Shown here in pieces: positions 2,710 to 27,577 of a stretch of 38,986 nt of DNA. Source of the DNA: a virus. The position numbers and the translations under genes were made by a program. Under the pieces are notes generated by a model, which worked only from the letters and a program-made list of their open reading frames with translations, did no database searches and was not told the origin of the DNA. The stretch spans positions 1 through 38,986 of IMG/VR virus record IMGVR_UViG_3300025168_000220; one strand, given 5' to 3'. Numbering within the stretch: position 1 is the stretch's first letter; each line of letters opens with the position of its first letter.

Positions 2710-4269
2710 TTAATATCCAAATGTTGCATCTGCTACTGGCATACTGCTAGATGGTCTGCCATGTGGGTCGTAGTCAAATATACTAAACCTTGGTCTTGAC
2801 ATTATACCATATCTTAAAGCATCATACAAGTGGTCTTCTGCTCTAGTATCTACATCTTCTGGGTTTCTTTTGTCTAAAGGTATTGCAGGTAACTGAGATA
2901 TTATATTTGTACAGTTACTAAAAAATACCATTCTAGGTTCTTCTGTAAATTCATCTACTTGTAGTCTCCTGTGTACTTCATTCTTTCCAGACACACGAGA
3001 ACCTCTACTTCTATCTGAAGGTCTCCAACGACAACCTCGCATAATCATTTGTTCAGCCAAAGATGGACCAGTATCACCACGTTTATGCCAAAGACTAGAA
3101 TCCAAAACACCATATCGAATATTTCCATCACCTGATTCTAATTCTAAAACCATATCGGCTAAATCTGTAGCTAATACTTTGGATACGTAGATTTCCCTGT
3201 AAACAACCAACTGTTCTGAAGGCGAAACAGCAATCCAAACAACTGCCGAGTAAGAGCCGTAACCATAATCACAAGCCCTGAACTTAACCCAATTAGAAGG
3301 TATCTTAAAGGGTTCAACAACATGTATATCCCTATTAAACTCAGTAAATGCAGCCCCTTCTTTAATATCCCAATCACCTTCCAAAAGCTGTCTACGCTGC
3401 TGTTCAGGTAAGGATAAGAGCATTGCTTCATAGTCTCCTGACTCAGCGAGGTATGGATTGTCAGATAATCTTGCAGGAATAAATCTCCTTTTGAATAAAG
3501 ATTTTCCAGCTTTAGAATGTCCTGCTGGGTATTTAAGGACTTCTCCGGTTTCAATATCTGTTGCATCAAATGCCTTTCCATATGGTGATCGGTCAATAAA
3601 CATCTTTTTAACCCATGAATGTCCTATACCACCCGGATTTGTTGTAGCCCTCATAAATATAGGCAAATCGGCTGCAGTAGAACGTAAACGTGAACGCATG
3701 TAGTTCCAAGCAAAAGGAGAACCCCATTGGGTTAACTCATCAAAGCCTATCCAACTAAATGCTAAACCTTGATAACGCATAACGTCTTCATCTCTATCAA
3801 GATAAGACATCCACAATCTTGCACCTGATGGTGCAACCCATTGCATCTTTCTTTCATACCACTTTATACCCTTCCATATTTGAGGATATAATTCCTGAGA
3901 CTTAAATATAAGTTCTCTTAATTCTTCTGTAGTATGTCTTAATAATAATCCACTAAACTGAGGATGACCCATATATCTTAAAGGGTCTGCTAACATAGCA
4001 TATGATTTACCACCACCTGCTGAACCACCATATAAAACTTCACGTTCACCTGCAGCTAAAAAATCAGTCTGAGGACCTTCATTAGGTGCAAAAACTATAT
4101 TTCTTTCTTCTACAGGATTTGTTTCTATTTTATCTACTATAGAACTAACTATTGTAGACTTTTGCTCCTGTACGACTTTCTTCGATTTCTTTCGCTTTGG
4201 AGATCGCCTTTTCTGCATACTCTGCCCACTTGCGTAGGACTCTAGCTTTGTTCTTACGTTGTTGCTCAT
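2710..4269 (-). CDS. terL: Terminase large subunit (packaging ATPase and nuclease)
   Basis: The 519-residue motor cuts concatemeric DNA and pumps it through the portal. Walker A is GGSAGGGKS at residues 81-89 (K88), Walker B is WIGFDE with D177 and E178, and an ATPase coupling motif RATTNPGG follows at about 207-214. The C-terminal RNase H-like nuclease shows RACDYG (D334), GVLDSS (D390) and AEDHLYDALRYG near the end, giving three acidic metal ligands. The start at 4269 makes a 125-base overlap with the preceding gene, and ATG at 4218 before a lysine/arginine-rich stretch is the alternative. Portal lies 10 bases downstream. Function is secure; the exact start is not. Confidence 0.95.
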   Translation of the reverse strand: MSNNVRTKLESYASGQSMQKRRSPKRKKSKKVVQEQKSTIVSSIVDKIETNPVEERNIVFAPNEGPQTDFLAAGEREVLYGGSAGGGKSYAMLADPLRYMGHPQFSGLLLRHTTEELRELIFKSQELYPQIWKGIKWYERKMQWVAPSGARLWMSYLDRDEDVMRYQGLAFSWIGFDELTQWGSPFAWNYMRSRLRSTAADLPIFMRATTNPGGIGHSWVKKMFIDRSPYGKAFDATDIETGEVLKYPAGHSKAGKSLFKRRFIPARLSDNPYLAESGDYEAMLLSLPEQQRRQLLEGDWDIKEGAAFTEFNRDIHVVEPFKIPSNWVKFRACDYGYGSYSAVVWIAVSPSEQLVVYREIYVSKVLATDLADMVLELESGDGNIRYGVLDSSLWHKRGDTGPSLAEQMIMRGCRWRPSDRSRGSRVSGKNEVHRRLQVDEFTEEPRMVFFSNCTNIISQLPAIPLDKRNPEDVDTRAEDHLYDALRYGIMSRPRFSIFDYDPHGRPSSSMPVADATFGY

Positions 4270-17016: not shown

Positions 17017-18081
17017 ATGAATGTATTAAGTTTATTTGATGGTATGTCATGTGGACAGATAGCACTTAACAGAGCAGGTGTGAAGTACAACAATTACTTT
17101 GCATCTGAGATAGACAAATATGCTATCAAGGTAGCAAAGGCTAACTACCCACACACTATACATGTAGGAGATGTTACACAGATAGGTAGACCATCTTCTG
17201 ATAACATTGACCTGCTCATGGGTGGTTCACCTTGTCAGGGGTTTAGTGTAGCAGGTAAACAGCTAGACTTTAATGACCCACGTAGCAAACTATTCTTTGA
17301 GTTTGTTAGGTTAAAAGATGAGTTAAAACCTAAGTACTTTCTTATGGAGAATGTACCTATGAAACAAGATTCGCAGGACATTATTACAAAGTATCTAGGT
17401 GTCAAGCCTGTCACTATAAACAGTAGCTTGTTCTCAGCACAGAATAGAAAGAGATTGTATTGGACTAACATACCCTTTGACACAATGCCTACGGCAGATA
17501 AGTGCATAGTATTGCAGGACGTACTAGAAGAAGATGGCATTGCCAATGAACTTATGACTAACAAACTAGGTAAGTCACATTGCATTACAGCACGATACAA
17601 TGGTGCAGTATGGTGGAACAGTATACAACGTAAGCAACGTACTATGGTACAAGTAGGTGAAGCTGACAACATCAAAGGCTTTGACAGTATCAAACGTATA
17701 TACTCATCTAGTGGGAAGTCTCCCACACTTACCACAATGCAAGGTGGGCATAGAGAACCGAAGGTAGCAATAGGTAGGATTGTTAATCGTAGATTAGATG
17801 AGCATGGTATTCGTAAGGATACTCAACTTGACCTACCATTTACTAATCAGCTAGAGATAGGTGACTCAGGTAAATCTAATTGCCTGACTACATTTACAAA
17901 AGATAATGTACTTGTAGAGGGTATGCAATGGAGAAAGCTAACACCATTAGAATGTGAGCGATTGCAGACTGTACCTGACAACTACACTAATCACGTGTCC
18001 AATAGCCAACGATATAAAATGTTAGGCAATGGTTGGACAGTTGATGTAATAGCACACATAATGAAAGGTATAAATCAATAA
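17017..18081 (+). CDS. DNA (cytosine-5) methyltransferase
   Basis: A 354-residue Dcm-type enzyme that transfers a methyl group from S-adenosylmethionine to C5 of cytosine. Motif I is LSLFDGMSCG (8-13), motif IV is GGSPCQGFS with nucleophile C73, motif VI is MENV (E111), motif VIII is QNRKRLYW, and the C-terminal motif X is LGNGWTVDVIAHI. The variable part between about 170 and 300 is the target recognition domain. No partner endonuclease is visible nearby, so it probably protects phage DNA from host restriction or marks it, rather than forming its own restriction system. The GC content is slightly above that of the neighbours. Confidence 0.93.
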   Translation: MNVLSLFDGMSCGQIALNRAGVKYNNYFASEIDKYAIKVAKANYPHTIHVGDVTQIGRPSSDNIDLLMGGSPCQGFSVAGKQLDFNDPRSKLFFEFVRLKDELKPKYFLMENVPMKQDSQDIITKYLGVKPVTINSSLFSAQNRKRLYWTNIPFDTMPTADKCIVLQDVLEEDGIANELMTNKLGKSHCITARYNGAVWWNSIQRKQRTMVQVGEADNIKGFDSIKRIYSSSGKSPTLTTMQGGHREPKVAIGRIVNRRLDEHGIRKDTQLDLPFTNQLEIGDSGKSNCLTTFTKDNVLVEGMQWRKLTPLECERLQTVPDNYTNHVSNSQRYKMLGNGWTVDVIAHIMKGINQ

Positions 18082-22943: not shown

Positions 22944-24170
22944 ATGGAACTTTCATTAGTACGTAGTTTGATGGACAAGGAGTTTTACGAAGAGCATCGT
23001 GGAGCAAGATGTCCTGATAAGCTATTTAGTAAAGACACTAGAAAAGTAAAACAAGCTATAGACAAAGCTATGGATAGATATGAACGTACTGTTACACCTG
23101 ATGAGATTGAAGCACTATTTATGTCTGACAATCCATCTTTAACTACAGCACAGAAACAAGCCTATTCACATTTATTTAAGCAGATAAAGAATGAATCCCC
23201 TCTAGGAGGAGATATAGCACAAGAGGTATTATCTAAATTATTTCAACAGGTAGTAGGAGAGGATGTAGCTAATATAGGATTTGATTTTGTAAATGGTACA
23301 CAGACAAGTCTTGAGCCTTTAAGATTATTACTAGAACAGCACAATGATGATTTTACACCTGATTTAAATGTGGAGTGGGATGATATGGATATAGAAACAC
23401 TACTTGCTAAGAATGCTTTAGAAGCAAGGTGGCATTTTAATATACCTGCATTGACAAGGCAGATTAGTGGTGTAAATGAAGGACATCTTATTGAGATAGG
23501 TGCTAGACCTAATACAGGTAAAACATCTTTTCATGCTAGTATGATTGCTGCTCCTGATGGTTTAGCACATCAAGGTGCTGATTGTATTGTGTTATGTAAT
23601 GAAGAGGGAAGCCATAGAGTAGGTGCTAGATATTTAACTGCTGCTACAGGTATGACTATGCGTGAAATAAAAAATAATCCCTCTAAGGCTCGTGACTTAT
23701 ATCAACCTGTAAAAGAGAGAATTAAAATTAAAGATGCCACAGGAAGAGATATGGCTTGGGTTGAATCCGTATGTAAATCTTATAAGCCTGATGTAGTTTT
23801 ATTAGATATGGGAGATAAGTTTGCACGTACAGGAGGTTTTGCTAGACCTGACGAAGCATTGAAAGCAAATGCTATATATGCTAGACAGATAGCAAAACAA
23901 CACAAGTGTGCTATGTTTTATATGTCACAGTTATCTGCTGATGCAGAAGGCAAGATTTTATTAAATCAAAGTATGATGGAAGGTAGTCGTACAGGTAAAG
24001 CCGCTGAAGCAGACTTAATGATACTTATAGCTAAGAACCCTCCTAAACAAGATGATGATGGAGAGGAAGATATTGAGAGACATTTAAATGTAGTTAAGAA
24101 TAAATTGTCTGGGTGGCATGGCTTAGTTCATTGTCAATTAAATTATCAAATAGGGAGATATGAAGCGTGA
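22944..24170 (+). CDS. Replicative DNA helicase (DnaB / T7 gp4-like)
   Basis: A 408-residue ring helicase with a GAAGGAGAT site before ATG at 22944. Walker A is GARPNTGKTS (186-195, K193), with CNEEGSHRVGARYL after it, Walker B is VVLLDMGD, and MSQLSADAEG plus EGSRTGKAAEADLMI resemble RecA-core motifs H3 and H4 of DnaB. The N-terminal 150 residues replace the primase of T7 gene 4 and may be an interaction domain. It should unwind DNA ahead of the polymerase at 24591 and contact the primase gene product. The stop overlaps the next GTG start by 4 bases. Confidence 0.92.
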   Translation: MELSLVRSLMDKEFYEEHRGARCPDKLFSKDTRKVKQAIDKAMDRYERTVTPDEIEALFMSDNPSLTTAQKQAYSHLFKQIKNESPLGGDIAQEVLSKLFQQVVGEDVANIGFDFVNGTQTSLEPLRLLLEQHNDDFTPDLNVEWDDMDIETLLAKNALEARWHFNIPALTRQISGVNEGHLIEIGARPNTGKTSFHASMIAAPDGLAHQGADCIVLCNEEGSHRVGARYLTAATGMTMREIKNNPSKARDLYQPVKERIKIKDATGRDMAWVESVCKSYKPDVVLLDMGDKFARTGGFARPDEALKANAIYARQIAKQHKCAMFYMSQLSADAEGKILLNQSMMEGSRTGKAAEADLMILIAKNPPKQDDDGEEDIERHLNVVKNKLSGWHGLVHCQLNYQIGRYEA

Positions 24171-24607
24171 CCCAAAAAGAACTGTTTGACATTGAACTAC
24201 TACATATTGATGGTGAAACAAAAACATGTAGTAAGTGTAATCAAAGATTGCCCCTATCTGCATTTAGTGTTTCATCAGGTGCAAACTTTCTTAGACCAGA
24301 ATGTAAAAAATGTAACAACGAACTAACAAAAGTTAGAAATATGTTACGAGAAAAACATGGAATGCCTGACAAAGATTATAACTGCCCTGTATGTAATAGA
24401 GGAGAGACAGAGGTAGCAGGAAAAGGGGGACAGAGAAATGGTGCATGGGTATTAGATCATTGTCACGATACTAGTACTTTTAGAGGTTGGCTTTGCCACA
24501 GTTGTAATAGATCATTGGGTGGTTTTTCAGATAGTGTTGACATTTTAAAAAAAGCTATTATATATTTAGAGAGACATATGGAGAAAATAAATGAAACTAG
24601 TACTTGA
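24167..24607 (+). CDS. Recombination endonuclease VII
   Basis: A 146-residue protein of the T4 endonuclease VII (gp49) type, with GTG start overlapping the helicase stop. It has a first zinc-like site KTCSKC (C21, C24) with ECKKC (C46, C49), a second with YNCPVC (C73, C76) and LCHSC (C110, C113), and the HNH centre WVLDHCHDTSTFRGW (D97, H98) with N114 in SCNRSLGGF. The enzyme cuts branched DNA such as Holliday junctions and mismatches. With the T7-type resolvase at 28429 this phage holds two junction nucleases. Confidence 0.9.
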   Translation: MTQKELFDIELLHIDGETKTCSKCNQRLPLSAFSVSSGANFLRPECKKCNNELTKVRNMLREKHGMPDKDYNCPVCNRGETEVAGKGGQRNGAWVLDHCHDTSTFRGWLCHSCNRSLGGFSDSVDILKKAIIYLERHMEKINETST

Positions 24608-26609
24608 CGTAGAGAATACAGTTACTAAACGTAATGATAAAATGCACTTAGACCCTTTTGAAAAAGATAATAGCCTTATTATGGTTGGTTGTCTTACAGA
24701 GACAGGAGAAGAGTATCTATTTCATCACGAGACAGGTTTTGATGGAGTACAGGAATTATTAGATCAGACTACTATCCTAATAGGACATAATATATCATAT
24801 GATTTAATGTGGTTATGGGAATGTGGTTTTAAATACAATGGTTCTGTCTTTGATACTATGCTTACTGAATATATCTTTCTAAGAGGACAAAAGAAACCTC
24901 TATCACTTGAAGCGTGTGCTGAAAGATATGAGTTAGCTACACAGAAAAAAGATACCCTAAAAGAATATTTTAAAAAGGGTTTGGGAGTAGATGATGTTCC
25001 TAAAGATGAATTATCTAGTTACTTATCTGCTGATTTACATTCAACTAAGGAGTTAGCAGATGAATTATATAGAAAACTTTCCATGGAAGAGCATAGGGGT
25101 CTACTTAATACTGTTGAGCATACCAATCGTGTTTCCCTTACTCTTGCTTATATTTATAGGCGAGGTTTTAATGTTGACCAAGTGTCACTTGATGAAGTTC
25201 AGAAAGAGTTTGAACAAGAAAAACTTTCTATCGAGAAGAGACTTTCTGTTCAAGTCAAAGAACTTATGGGAGAGACACCAATAAATTTAAATAGTCCAGA
25301 ACAGATGTCCTGTGTTATATATAGTAGAAAACCTAGAGATAAAACAACGTGGTTAAATAACTTTACTCCTTATATGAATAAGAAGGATTTATTTGATAAG
25401 ATAAGAGAGAATAGTGATATTATTTATAAGACAATAGCTGTTAGATGTAATACATGTTATGGTTCAGGGATAATAAGAAAAGTTAAAAAGGATGGAAAGC
25501 CCTATAAGAACCACCCAAAGTGTAATGTCTGTATAGGTTCTGGTTACATATTTAAACCAACTAAGATGTTAGCAGGTCTTAAATTTAATATACCTTCTGC
25601 AAAGTGGGTTAGTGCTAATGGTTTTAGTGTTAACAAAAATATGTTGAGTGTTTTACAGCACGTATCTAAGAGGAGTGATTCAGTTCCAGCCTATCAGTTT
25701 TTAACTGATCTTCAAAGGTTATCAGCTTTAGATACATACCTTTCATCTTTTGTAGATGGCATAAGTTCTTTTATTAAAACTGATGGTAAATTACACGTTA
25801 GATTATTACAACATAGAACATCTACAGGTAGGTTTAGTGGGGCTGACCCTAATATGCAGAATATGCCTAGAGGTGGTACATTTCCTGTTAAGAAAGTGTT
25901 TATATCTAGGTGGAATAGGGGTAAGATATTAGAAGCAGACTTTGCTCAATTAGAGTTTAGGACTGCTGCATATCTTGCTCAAGATAAAATAGCAATGAAG
26001 GAGATTGAAAATGGTTTTGACGTACATAGCTATACTGCAAAAGTTATATCGGAGAATGGTCAAAAGATTACTAGGCAGGTGGCAAAAGGGCATACCTTTG
26101 CACCCCTCTTTGGGGCAACGGGATTTGGGAGATCAACTGCTGAAGCGGCATATTATAAACAGTTCACGGAAAAGTACAAAGGGATCGCATTATGGCATTC
26201 CCGATTGGCTAAAGAAGCTTTAAATACTTTTAAAATAAAAACACCATCAGGAAGAGAGTTTGCTTTCCCTGATGTGATTAGGAAAATGAATGGTGGAGTG
26301 TCACATTTTACACAAATTAAAAATTACCCTGTACAATCTTTTGCTACAGCCGACATAGTTCCTTTAATACTTATGGACATAGATAATAGGCTTAATATAT
26401 TAGAATCATGTGTTGTTAATACTGTACACGATTCTATTGTAATTGATGTACACCCTAACGAAATAGATGCTGTTATGAAAATTATAGAAGATACCAATAA
26501 AGATATGACAGATACTATAAATAAACACTTTAATATAGACTTGAATGTTCCTTTATTATTAGAAGCAAAAATAGGTAATAATTGGCTTGACATGAAAGAA
26601 GTAGTGTGA
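24591..26609 (+). CDS. DNA polymerase I (family A) with DnaJ-like zinc insert
   Basis: A 672-residue replicative polymerase with 3'-5' exonuclease. Exo I is VLDVENT (D6, E8), exo II IGHNISYD (N67, D71), exo III YLSAD (Y144, D148). Between exo and polymerase lies CNTCYGSG (C286, C289) and CNVCIGSG (C311, C314), a zinc finger like the central DnaJ domain, the known HMO-2011 hallmark. Motif A is LEADFAQLEFR (D450), motif B RQVAKGHTFAPLFG (R495, K499, F503, F507), motif C VHDSIVI (H613, D614, S615). F503 equals position 762 of E. coli Pol I. S615 replaces the usual Glu after the catalytic Asp. GGAG precedes ATG at 24591. Confidence 0.97.
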   Translation: MKLVLDVENTVTKRNDKMHLDPFEKDNSLIMVGCLTETGEEYLFHHETGFDGVQELLDQTTILIGHNISYDLMWLWECGFKYNGSVFDTMLTEYIFLRGQKKPLSLEACAERYELATQKKDTLKEYFKKGLGVDDVPKDELSSYLSADLHSTKELADELYRKLSMEEHRGLLNTVEHTNRVSLTLAYIYRRGFNVDQVSLDEVQKEFEQEKLSIEKRLSVQVKELMGETPINLNSPEQMSCVIYSRKPRDKTTWLNNFTPYMNKKDLFDKIRENSDIIYKTIAVRCNTCYGSGIIRKVKKDGKPYKNHPKCNVCIGSGYIFKPTKMLAGLKFNIPSAKWVSANGFSVNKNMLSVLQHVSKRSDSVPAYQFLTDLQRLSALDTYLSSFVDGISSFIKTDGKLHVRLLQHRTSTGRFSGADPNMQNMPRGGTFPVKKVFISRWNRGKILEADFAQLEFRTAAYLAQDKIAMKEIENGFDVHSYTAKVISENGQKITRQVAKGHTFAPLFGATGFGRSTAEAAYYKQFTEKYKGIALWHSRLAKEALNTFKIKTPSGREFAFPDVIRKMNGGVSHFTQIKNYPVQSFATADIVPLILMDIDNRLNILESCVVNTVHDSIVIDVHPNEIDAVMKIIEDTNKDMTDTINKHFNIDLNVPLLLEAKIGNNWLDMKEVV

Positions 26610-26644: not shown

Positions 26645-27577
26645 ATGAATGAAGTAATAACAATAAGCACAGACAACTATGCTCAAATGGCTAAAGCTAT
26701 GGGTTTAGAAGCTGCTAATACAAATACAATAAGGAAAGCTAATAATCTCAATAGACTAAGAATATGGCATTCACCTATTATGGGTCAAGCTGAAATAAAT
26801 GGTAAGACTAAAAATGTTGAGATTATAGAAGGGGGTTCATATAGATTAGAAGTATTAGATGAAGAAAAATCAACGTACTACTATGCTAAAACTGCTGAAG
26901 TAAGACCCTTCATGCAAAGATATATGTACAGAAGATATTTAGCTAATCCTAATGCAAAAGCAGGAGAGCCTAAGGGTAGTTTTCATAGAACTATTATGTC
27001 CGATACTCTTAATAATGACTTGAAGGATAATACAGGTAGATTTAATTGTGGTAAACCAGCAGGTTTTATTGAAGATTTCAAAGCCTTACCTACTGACATG
27101 CAGGATTTAATTAGACAGATAAAAAGAGTACGTGTCGTATTTGGAACAATTAAATTAGATAAACCTGTAGATGAAAAGGGTAAAGAAGTTACTGTTGAGA
27201 AAGTTCCTTTTATATGGGAGATTGATAACAGGGATGCATATAAAACTATTGGAGATCAATTTAATATATTCTTAAAGAAAGAGAGATTACCTCTACAGCA
27301 TAATATGTTATTGAAGGAGACCAAAGAGAATCCCTTACCAAATGGTTCTAGTTTTTATACACCTTTAGCACAAGTTAATTTATCTAAATTACTTGATATA
27401 GATGCTAGAGATCATAAAACATTTGGAGATTTTGTTGATTGGGTTAAAAACTACAATGACTATATATATAAAGAATGGGATGAAAAATCTCAAGCTAGAC
27501 AGAGTACTATATCAGAGGAGGATTCTAATACAGTAGACCAGTTTATAGATGTAGATTTAGAAGGAGATAAAAAGTAA
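26645..27577 (+). CDS. Candidate single-stranded DNA-binding protein
   Basis: A 310-residue protein with GAAGGAGAA before ATG at 26645. It lies between polymerase and exonuclease, the position where T7-like phages have replication or recombination accessory proteins. The middle is strand-rich (IEGGSYRLEVLDEEKSTY, RVRVVFGTIKL, PFIWEIDNRD), and the C-terminus is acidic and ends VDQFIDVDLEGDKK, as in single-stranded DNA-binding proteins, where such a tail contacts partners. The stop overlaps the next start (TAATG). The call is an inference from tail, strand content and position. Confidence 0.5.
   Translation: MNEVITISTDNYAQMAKAMGLEAANTNTIRKANNLNRLRIWHSPIMGQAEINGKTKNVEIIEGGSYRLEVLDEEKSTYYYAKTAEVRPFMQRYMYRRYLANPNAKAGEPKGSFHRTIMSDTLNNDLKDNTGRFNCGKPAGFIEDFKALPTDMQDLIRQIKRVRVVFGTIKLDKPVDEKGKEVTVEKVPFIWEIDNRDAYKTIGDQFNIFLKKERLPLQHNMLLKETKENPLPNGSSFYTPLAQVNLSKLLDIDARDHKTFGDFVDWVKNYNDYIYKEWDEKSQARQSTISEEDSNTVDQFIDVDLEGDKK

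Follow-up and report, generated by a model that had tools for sequence, protein, structure and literature searches.

Positions 24591-26609 of the window (the whole stretch of DNA analysed, 38,986 bases, as against roughly 55 kb for an HMO-2011-type genome) hold an intact forward-strand open reading frame of 672 amino acids that begins with ATG; on the reverse complement, the matching frame is stop-rich throughout. The predicted protein matches the Pfam families PF00476 (DNA_pol_A; E=3.5e-49, 168.2 bits against a cut-off of 34.3) and PF01612 (3′-5′ exonuclease; E=7.2e-7), and it carries polymerase motifs A, B and C with equivalents of Escherichia coli D705, R754, K758 and D882 (D450, R495, K499 and D614). 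Its full-length AlphaFold model (mean pLDDT 90.1) finds the Pol I structures of Bst, Taq and Klenow as the closest solved folds, with Z up to 34.8. The exonuclease motifs D6/E8, N67/D71 and Y144/D148 (24606-25034, forward strand), the catalytic motifs of such exonucleases, are intact and occupy near-invariant columns of a 53-row alignment. When 50,697 phage records were searched, the best full-length matches were HMO-2011-type phages, the HMO-2011 polymerase itself being 61.4% identical over 100% of the length. In addition, the window's TerL (2710-4269, minus strand) and portal proteins are 81.3% and 79.6% identical to those of HMO-2011, and its genes run as in HMO-2011, from a tyrosine integrase (PF00589, E=4e-16) through primase and DnaB-like helicase to the polymerase, which has one additional gene ahead of it. 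A TerL homologue is among the criteria that PMC9038755 gives for phages of this type. Based on the TerL and portal kinship, the gene order and the polymerase match, the window is the record of an HMO-2011-type phage, and the gene, judged from its sequence, encodes the family A polymerase that replicates and proofreads the DNA of that phage, which bears out the group assignment of the first-pass annotation.

The extra gene (24167-24607) encodes an endonuclease VII-like HNH protein (PF02945, E=4.4e-15) and lies between the helicase and polymerase genes, sharing 17 bases with the start of the polymerase gene. Of the 242 loci that show both flanking genes, 35 had a homologue, and the HMO-2011 record shows no gene at this place. 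On the other side of the polymerase, a forward-strand gene at 26645-27577 encodes an unnamed protein with an acidic C-terminal tail that is conserved in HMO-type loci. Farther away, the early region contains a C-5 cytosine DNA methylase gene (17017-18081; PF00145, E=1.3e-51) and, upstream of the integrase gene, a near-palindrome (AAACTGTCAATTSAATTGACACTT in most copies) that occurs seven times between 12389 and 15937, always with the same flank orientation and at spacings of 351-765 bases. Counted on both strands with up to 3 mismatches allowed, the near-palindrome has 13 matches where 0.25 would be expected; none of the 316 loci compared contains its exact core, and a single site is present in each of 13 other viral contigs. 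The near-palindrome resembles an operator or promoter repeat peculiar to the phage of the window.

The polymerases used for comparison came from five scans of viral contigs and from fetched phage records. Among 284 open reading frames found, 264 were at least 600 amino acids long, and these, with the window protein and T7 gp5, gave 233 distinct sequences, 228 of them HMO-type. The scans favour close relatives first, so the 228 are an uneven sample. Omitted were 20 reading frames shorter than 600 amino acids, including the split ICP2 polymerase, and loci L205-L209, which had no match. The non-HMO set comprised 21 phage polymerases: 15 chosen by hand and not at random, together with L089, L090, L290, L091, L092 and T7. 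In L089 (Vibrio phage ICP2_2013_A_Haiti) and in L313 (VP41s3) the family A match spans two neighbouring genes, so that these phages seem to make the exonuclease and the polymerase as two proteins.

Active-site residues were assigned from MAFFT alignments, made in two modes, of the protein to E. coli PolA (NC_000913) and T7 gp5. Motif A (25938-25955) runs from D450 to E455, the equivalents of D705 and E710; motif B, or the O helix (RQVAKGHTFAPLFG; 26073-26114), contains R495 (R754), K499 (K758), F503 (F762; Y526 in T7) and F507 (Y766; Y530 in T7); and motif C (26427-26435) is H613-D614-S615, corresponding to H881-D882-E883, all three on the forward strand. Translation and alignment thus agree with the residues that had been named at the outset: C286, C289, C311, C314, F503, F507 and S615. 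The possibility that F503 falls outside the O helix was checked specifically; both MAFFT modes place it opposite F762, and DSSP assigns helix to residues 495-502 and 504-507 of the model, which puts F503 within the O-helix region.

Two of these residues had been singled out as telling, and neither distinguishes this phage. F503 had been brought into connection with life style, in keeping with a report that ties Phe762 and Tyr762 to virulent phages (PMC6302109). Within the HMO lineage, position 762 has no such discriminating power: it is Phe in 228 of 228 polymerases, among them that of CRP-3, which has been demonstrated to integrate (PMC6918029), and it is equally Phe in members of subgroups IV-X, e.g. 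HTVC033P, which PMC9038755 reports to be without lysogeny genes. F762 was therefore rejected as a life-style marker inside the lineage, since it is invariant in temperate and apparently lytic members alike. Outside the lineage, the 21 polymerases have Phe in 19 cases, Tyr in one (T7) and Leu in one (LP-110); F503 is, by these counts, an ordinary residue for phage polymerases. For the T7 enzyme, PMC13228545 describes a Y526F change that cut both specific activity and burst size by half and for which no difference in fidelity was seen. Likewise, the motif C Ser had been called uncommon, which the counts contradict. Position 883 is Ser in all 222 HMO-type sequences that have a letter there (6 have gaps), and the alignment of the 21 non-HMO polymerases reads Ser in 8, Ala in 5, Cys in 4 and Glu in 4, so that 17 of the 21 lack Glu. 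Ser is also found at 883 in insert-free relatives. With Ser the rule inside the lineage and present in 8 of 21 sampled polymerases outside it, a claim of rarity is not supported, and S615 too is ordinary for a phage polymerase as far as aligned residues can tell.

F507, which had also been considered uncommon, is a different matter. Position 766 is Tyr in 174 and Phe in 54 of the 228 HMO-type polymerases, and it is Tyr in 20 of the 21 others. The single Phe there belongs to Alcaligenes phage vB_Af_QDWS535 (L316), whose polymerase is annotated as two adjacent genes and has an odd O helix, with Arg in place of the next Gly. On a tree of 65 representatives, built by a quick method with the position-766 column left out and long branches flagged, the fewest changes that explain the distribution are four (in the group of the window, L001 and L002, in CRP-2, in the CRP-738 clade and in L285), or three if L285 is misplaced. 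The uncommonness thus stands as a sub-clade trait. The accompanying suggestion of altered fidelity fares less well: Y766 and E710 are said to be conserved throughout family A and to form a hydrogen-bonded pair in the closed state, and because simulations in the same paper find that Y766F stays near wild type (PMC4882331), a large effect on fidelity is not expected. The loss of fidelity cited in PMC3121766 concerns Y766S, a far larger change. F507 is probably a conservative, repeatedly evolved substitution of mild effect. Read from alignment and tree, Y766F is a rare letter that arose in at least three to four independent changes within the lineage, an observation that is new to the extent of our literature searches.

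What sets the lineage apart is an insert at residues 249-344 (25335-25622, forward strand), which includes a presumed zinc site (25446-25532, forward strand) made of two CxxCxGxG motifs, C286/C289 and C311/C314, with a basic loop between them. Each of the 228 distinct HMO-type polymerases of 600 amino acids or more keeps the four Cys, although identity to the window falls to 36%, and none of that length without the insert was seen among the 228; chance is excluded for the pattern because of this conservation. The proposal that the zinc insert marks the lineage is accordingly upheld, and the contrary case, its absence from HMO-2011 relatives, was not encountered. The finer claim of GSG after each Cys pair needs rewording: the window protein reads C-x-G-S-G, and across the 228 sequences G291, G293 and G318 are invariant, whereas the Ser varies and position 316 holds Gly in only 166. 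Polymerases of this group have already been reported to contain part of a DnaJ domain, with two CXXCXGXG motifs (PMC6918029, PMC9038755, PMC8528129); PMC9038755 found the insert in 7 newly isolated phages and in 207 genomes from metagenomes, and the GenBank record of HMO-2011 (GU557055) itself notes PF00684. Used as a query against phage records, the insert returned 34 matches up to E=10, of which 12 are HMO-type at E<=4e-6 and the other 22 lie at E>=1. Against genome contigs it returned 10 loci, nine of them from metagenome bins and the tenth from a single-cell assembly, which are at most candidate prophages.

Published descriptions set the insert between the exonuclease and polymerase domains (PMC6918029, PMC9038755). 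Our alignments point to a different position. By phmmer and profile alignments, window residues 231-247 correspond to the PolA helix NLSSTKQLQTILFEKQ, which starts at 578; MAFFT places residues 248-344 opposite the stretch of PolA between 593 and 607, and from 345 the protein corresponds to PolA 607 onward. Some 96 residues of the insert region thereby take the place of a 13-residue PolA loop, 594-606, which we assume to be the tip of the thumb; the insert is put at 75-90 residues. An E. coli mutant without about residues 590-613, made by Minnick and colleagues in 1996, reportedly has lower DNA binding and processivity. Stenotrophomonas phage StenR_269, the nearest insert-free relative, and contig L290 share with the window 30% full-length identity, F762, the HDS of motif C and a similar O helix; they differ from it in having Y766 and in lacking the zinc insert, with a short loop at the same point and an alignment that resumes near there. 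The insert thus appears to sit at the thumb tip, inside the polymerase domain, a placement that is new to the extent of the literature searches, in which no paper joining HMO-2011 with the thumb was found and whose coverage leaves out most subscription papers. Long insertions near this thumb site also occur in Caulobacter phage Quill_5.2 (L091) and phage MedPE-SWcel-C56 (L092); these are other, unrelated sequences, so that phage family A polymerases may have a hot spot for insertion here.

The name DnaJ-like suits the zinc motif and little else. PF00684, the DnaJ cysteine-rich domain, matches residues 284-322 of the whole protein at E=8.4e-4 and the insert alone at E=3.6e-5, both under the Pfam cut-off; with matches up to E=0.1 considered, every one of the 53 members searched hits PF00684, and 30 hit anti-TRAP. 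Insert profiles match E. coli DnaJ repeats 2-3 (1exk, E=0.021) and the lambda-type antiterminator Q (E=0.17-0.26). Modelled alone (98 residues; pLDDT 87.2, pTM 0.54), the insert shows short helices and two long strands, which we read as a hairpin, and its fold matches are weak, with a best Foldseek E of 0.19 and Z scores of 4.2 for DnaJA2, 3.5 for UvrA, 3.5 for anti-TRAP and 3.3 for Q-lambda with DNA; BSD2 was also returned. The DnaJ domain, anti-TRAP, UvrA and lambda Q have a CxxCxGxG-type zinc hairpin such as is predicted, at weak scores, for the insert, but DnaJ has two motif pairs (four repeats, two zinc sites) and the insert has a single pair, carried inside a polymerase thumb. Since only two of the four repeats are present and no Pfam match to a J domain was found in the polymerase up to E=1, membership among the DnaJ (Hsp40) co-chaperones was rejected. 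From these models the insert is predicted to be not a chaperone domain but a one-zinc hairpin, part of a loose group with DnaJ repeats 2-3, anti-TRAP, UvrA and lambda Q.

The loop between the inner Cys residues is strongly basic, with a net charge of +6 in the window and +4 to +11 (mean +6.6) in the 228; on average only 0.9% of the other segments of that length in a protein are as basic, although these ranks come from related sequences and are not independent draws. Inserts in the thumb have a part in the processivity of T7 and human polymerases (PMC7699545), and basic residues of the T7 thumb insert contact DNA (PMC5984650). Because the loop is basic in all 228 sequences and other family A polymerases use inserts in the thumb for processivity, a DNA-grip module is the most likely reading of the insert. 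It would fold as two short helices and a β hairpin, the end of which is clamped by one zinc through the four Cys; taking the place of the 13-residue PolA loop, it would lengthen the thumb at its tip; and its conserved basic loop might touch the primer-template duplex behind the active site and so hold the enzyme on DNA, in a manner comparable to that of the T7 thumb insert, though without thioredoxin. Zinc binding, DNA contact and processivity are all part of this proposal, to which we give just short of an even chance. The hairpins of DnaJ, UvrA and anti-TRAP often make protein contacts, and for this reason DNA contact is not the default reading of such a fold. T7 gp5 is likewise a family A phage replicase with a thumb insert bearing DNA-contacting basic residues, but it has Tyr at 762 and Glu at 883, and its insert is not evidently related to that of the window: hhalign and MAFFT did not resolve the thumb region or reveal clear similarity between the two inserts, and whereas the T7 insert presumably lies before the thumb helix, that of the window lies after it. 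No thioredoxin was found among the window proteins scanned.

A protein partner for the same basic loop is the main alternative, a rather unlikely one with a concrete candidate. Another replisome protein might dock on the hairpin, one possibility being the product of the downstream gene (26645-27577) with its acidic tail, much as the T7 ssDNA-binding protein docks by its C-terminal tail on the T7 thumb insert (PMC7699545). The tail is acidic in 227 of the 228 homologues of this neighbour, with a mean net charge of -6.0 as compared with -0.2 for 729 other open reading frames, and it is at -4 or below in 83% of the homologues against 10% of those reading frames. Based on position and tail only, the product is perhaps a candidate ssDNA-binding protein or polymerase partner; no family match was found for it, and its want of an assigned function counts against the docking scheme. 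So does the relation between the two charges, which do not compensate: over 175 loci, uncorrected for relatedness, r=+0.40, the most basic loops occurring with less acidic tails.

It is improbable that the insert is simply a structural spacer or relic, with a zinc site that stabilises the thumb and no specific partner. Its columns are somewhat less conserved than those of the whole protein (48% against 54% on average) and its loop varies in length (21, 33 or 34 residues across the lineage), as a spacer would allow, but the Cys, three Gly and basic positions are kept in essentially all 228 sequences, none of which has dispensed with the insert. We consider a retained chaperone-like role, in recruiting host DnaK or in folding or remodelling replication proteins, very improbable in spite of the match to DnaJ repeats 2-3 and the link to DnaJ in lambda replication discussed in PMC9038755, in view of the unmatched J domain, the missing repeats, the occurrence of the same half-module in anti-TRAP, UvrA and Q, and an inter-motif segment that is basic, unlike that of DnaJ.

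Phages of the HMO-2011 type abound in the oceans, and the gene for their polymerase serves as a marker. Puniceispirillum phage HMO-2011 itself shares with the window the order of exonuclease, insert and polymerase, both CxxCxGxG motifs, F762 and HDS, together with the gene order and the TerL and portal kinship, and differs in having Tyr at 766 and no endonuclease VII gene between helicase and polymerase. The polymerase and its zinc insert were already known for the group; to the extent of our searches, the placement at the thumb tip, the demotion of F762 and the motif C Ser, and the repeated Y766F change are new. The insert has so far been treated as an inter-domain element or a tag (PMC6918029, PMC9038755, PMC8528129), and its placement in the thumb turns it into the subject of a testable processivity hypothesis. 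The residue counts caution against inferring life style from F762, or altered fidelity from the motif C Ser, within the HMO lineage, and the repeated Y766F change offers natural material for testing a residue called universally conserved in family A (PMC4882331). We propose, tentatively and with somewhat more doubt than assurance, that HMO-2011-type phages evolved a processivity or docking module of their own, a basic, zinc-pinned hairpin at the thumb tip that would work without thioredoxin, in polymerases that changed Tyr766 to Phe several times.
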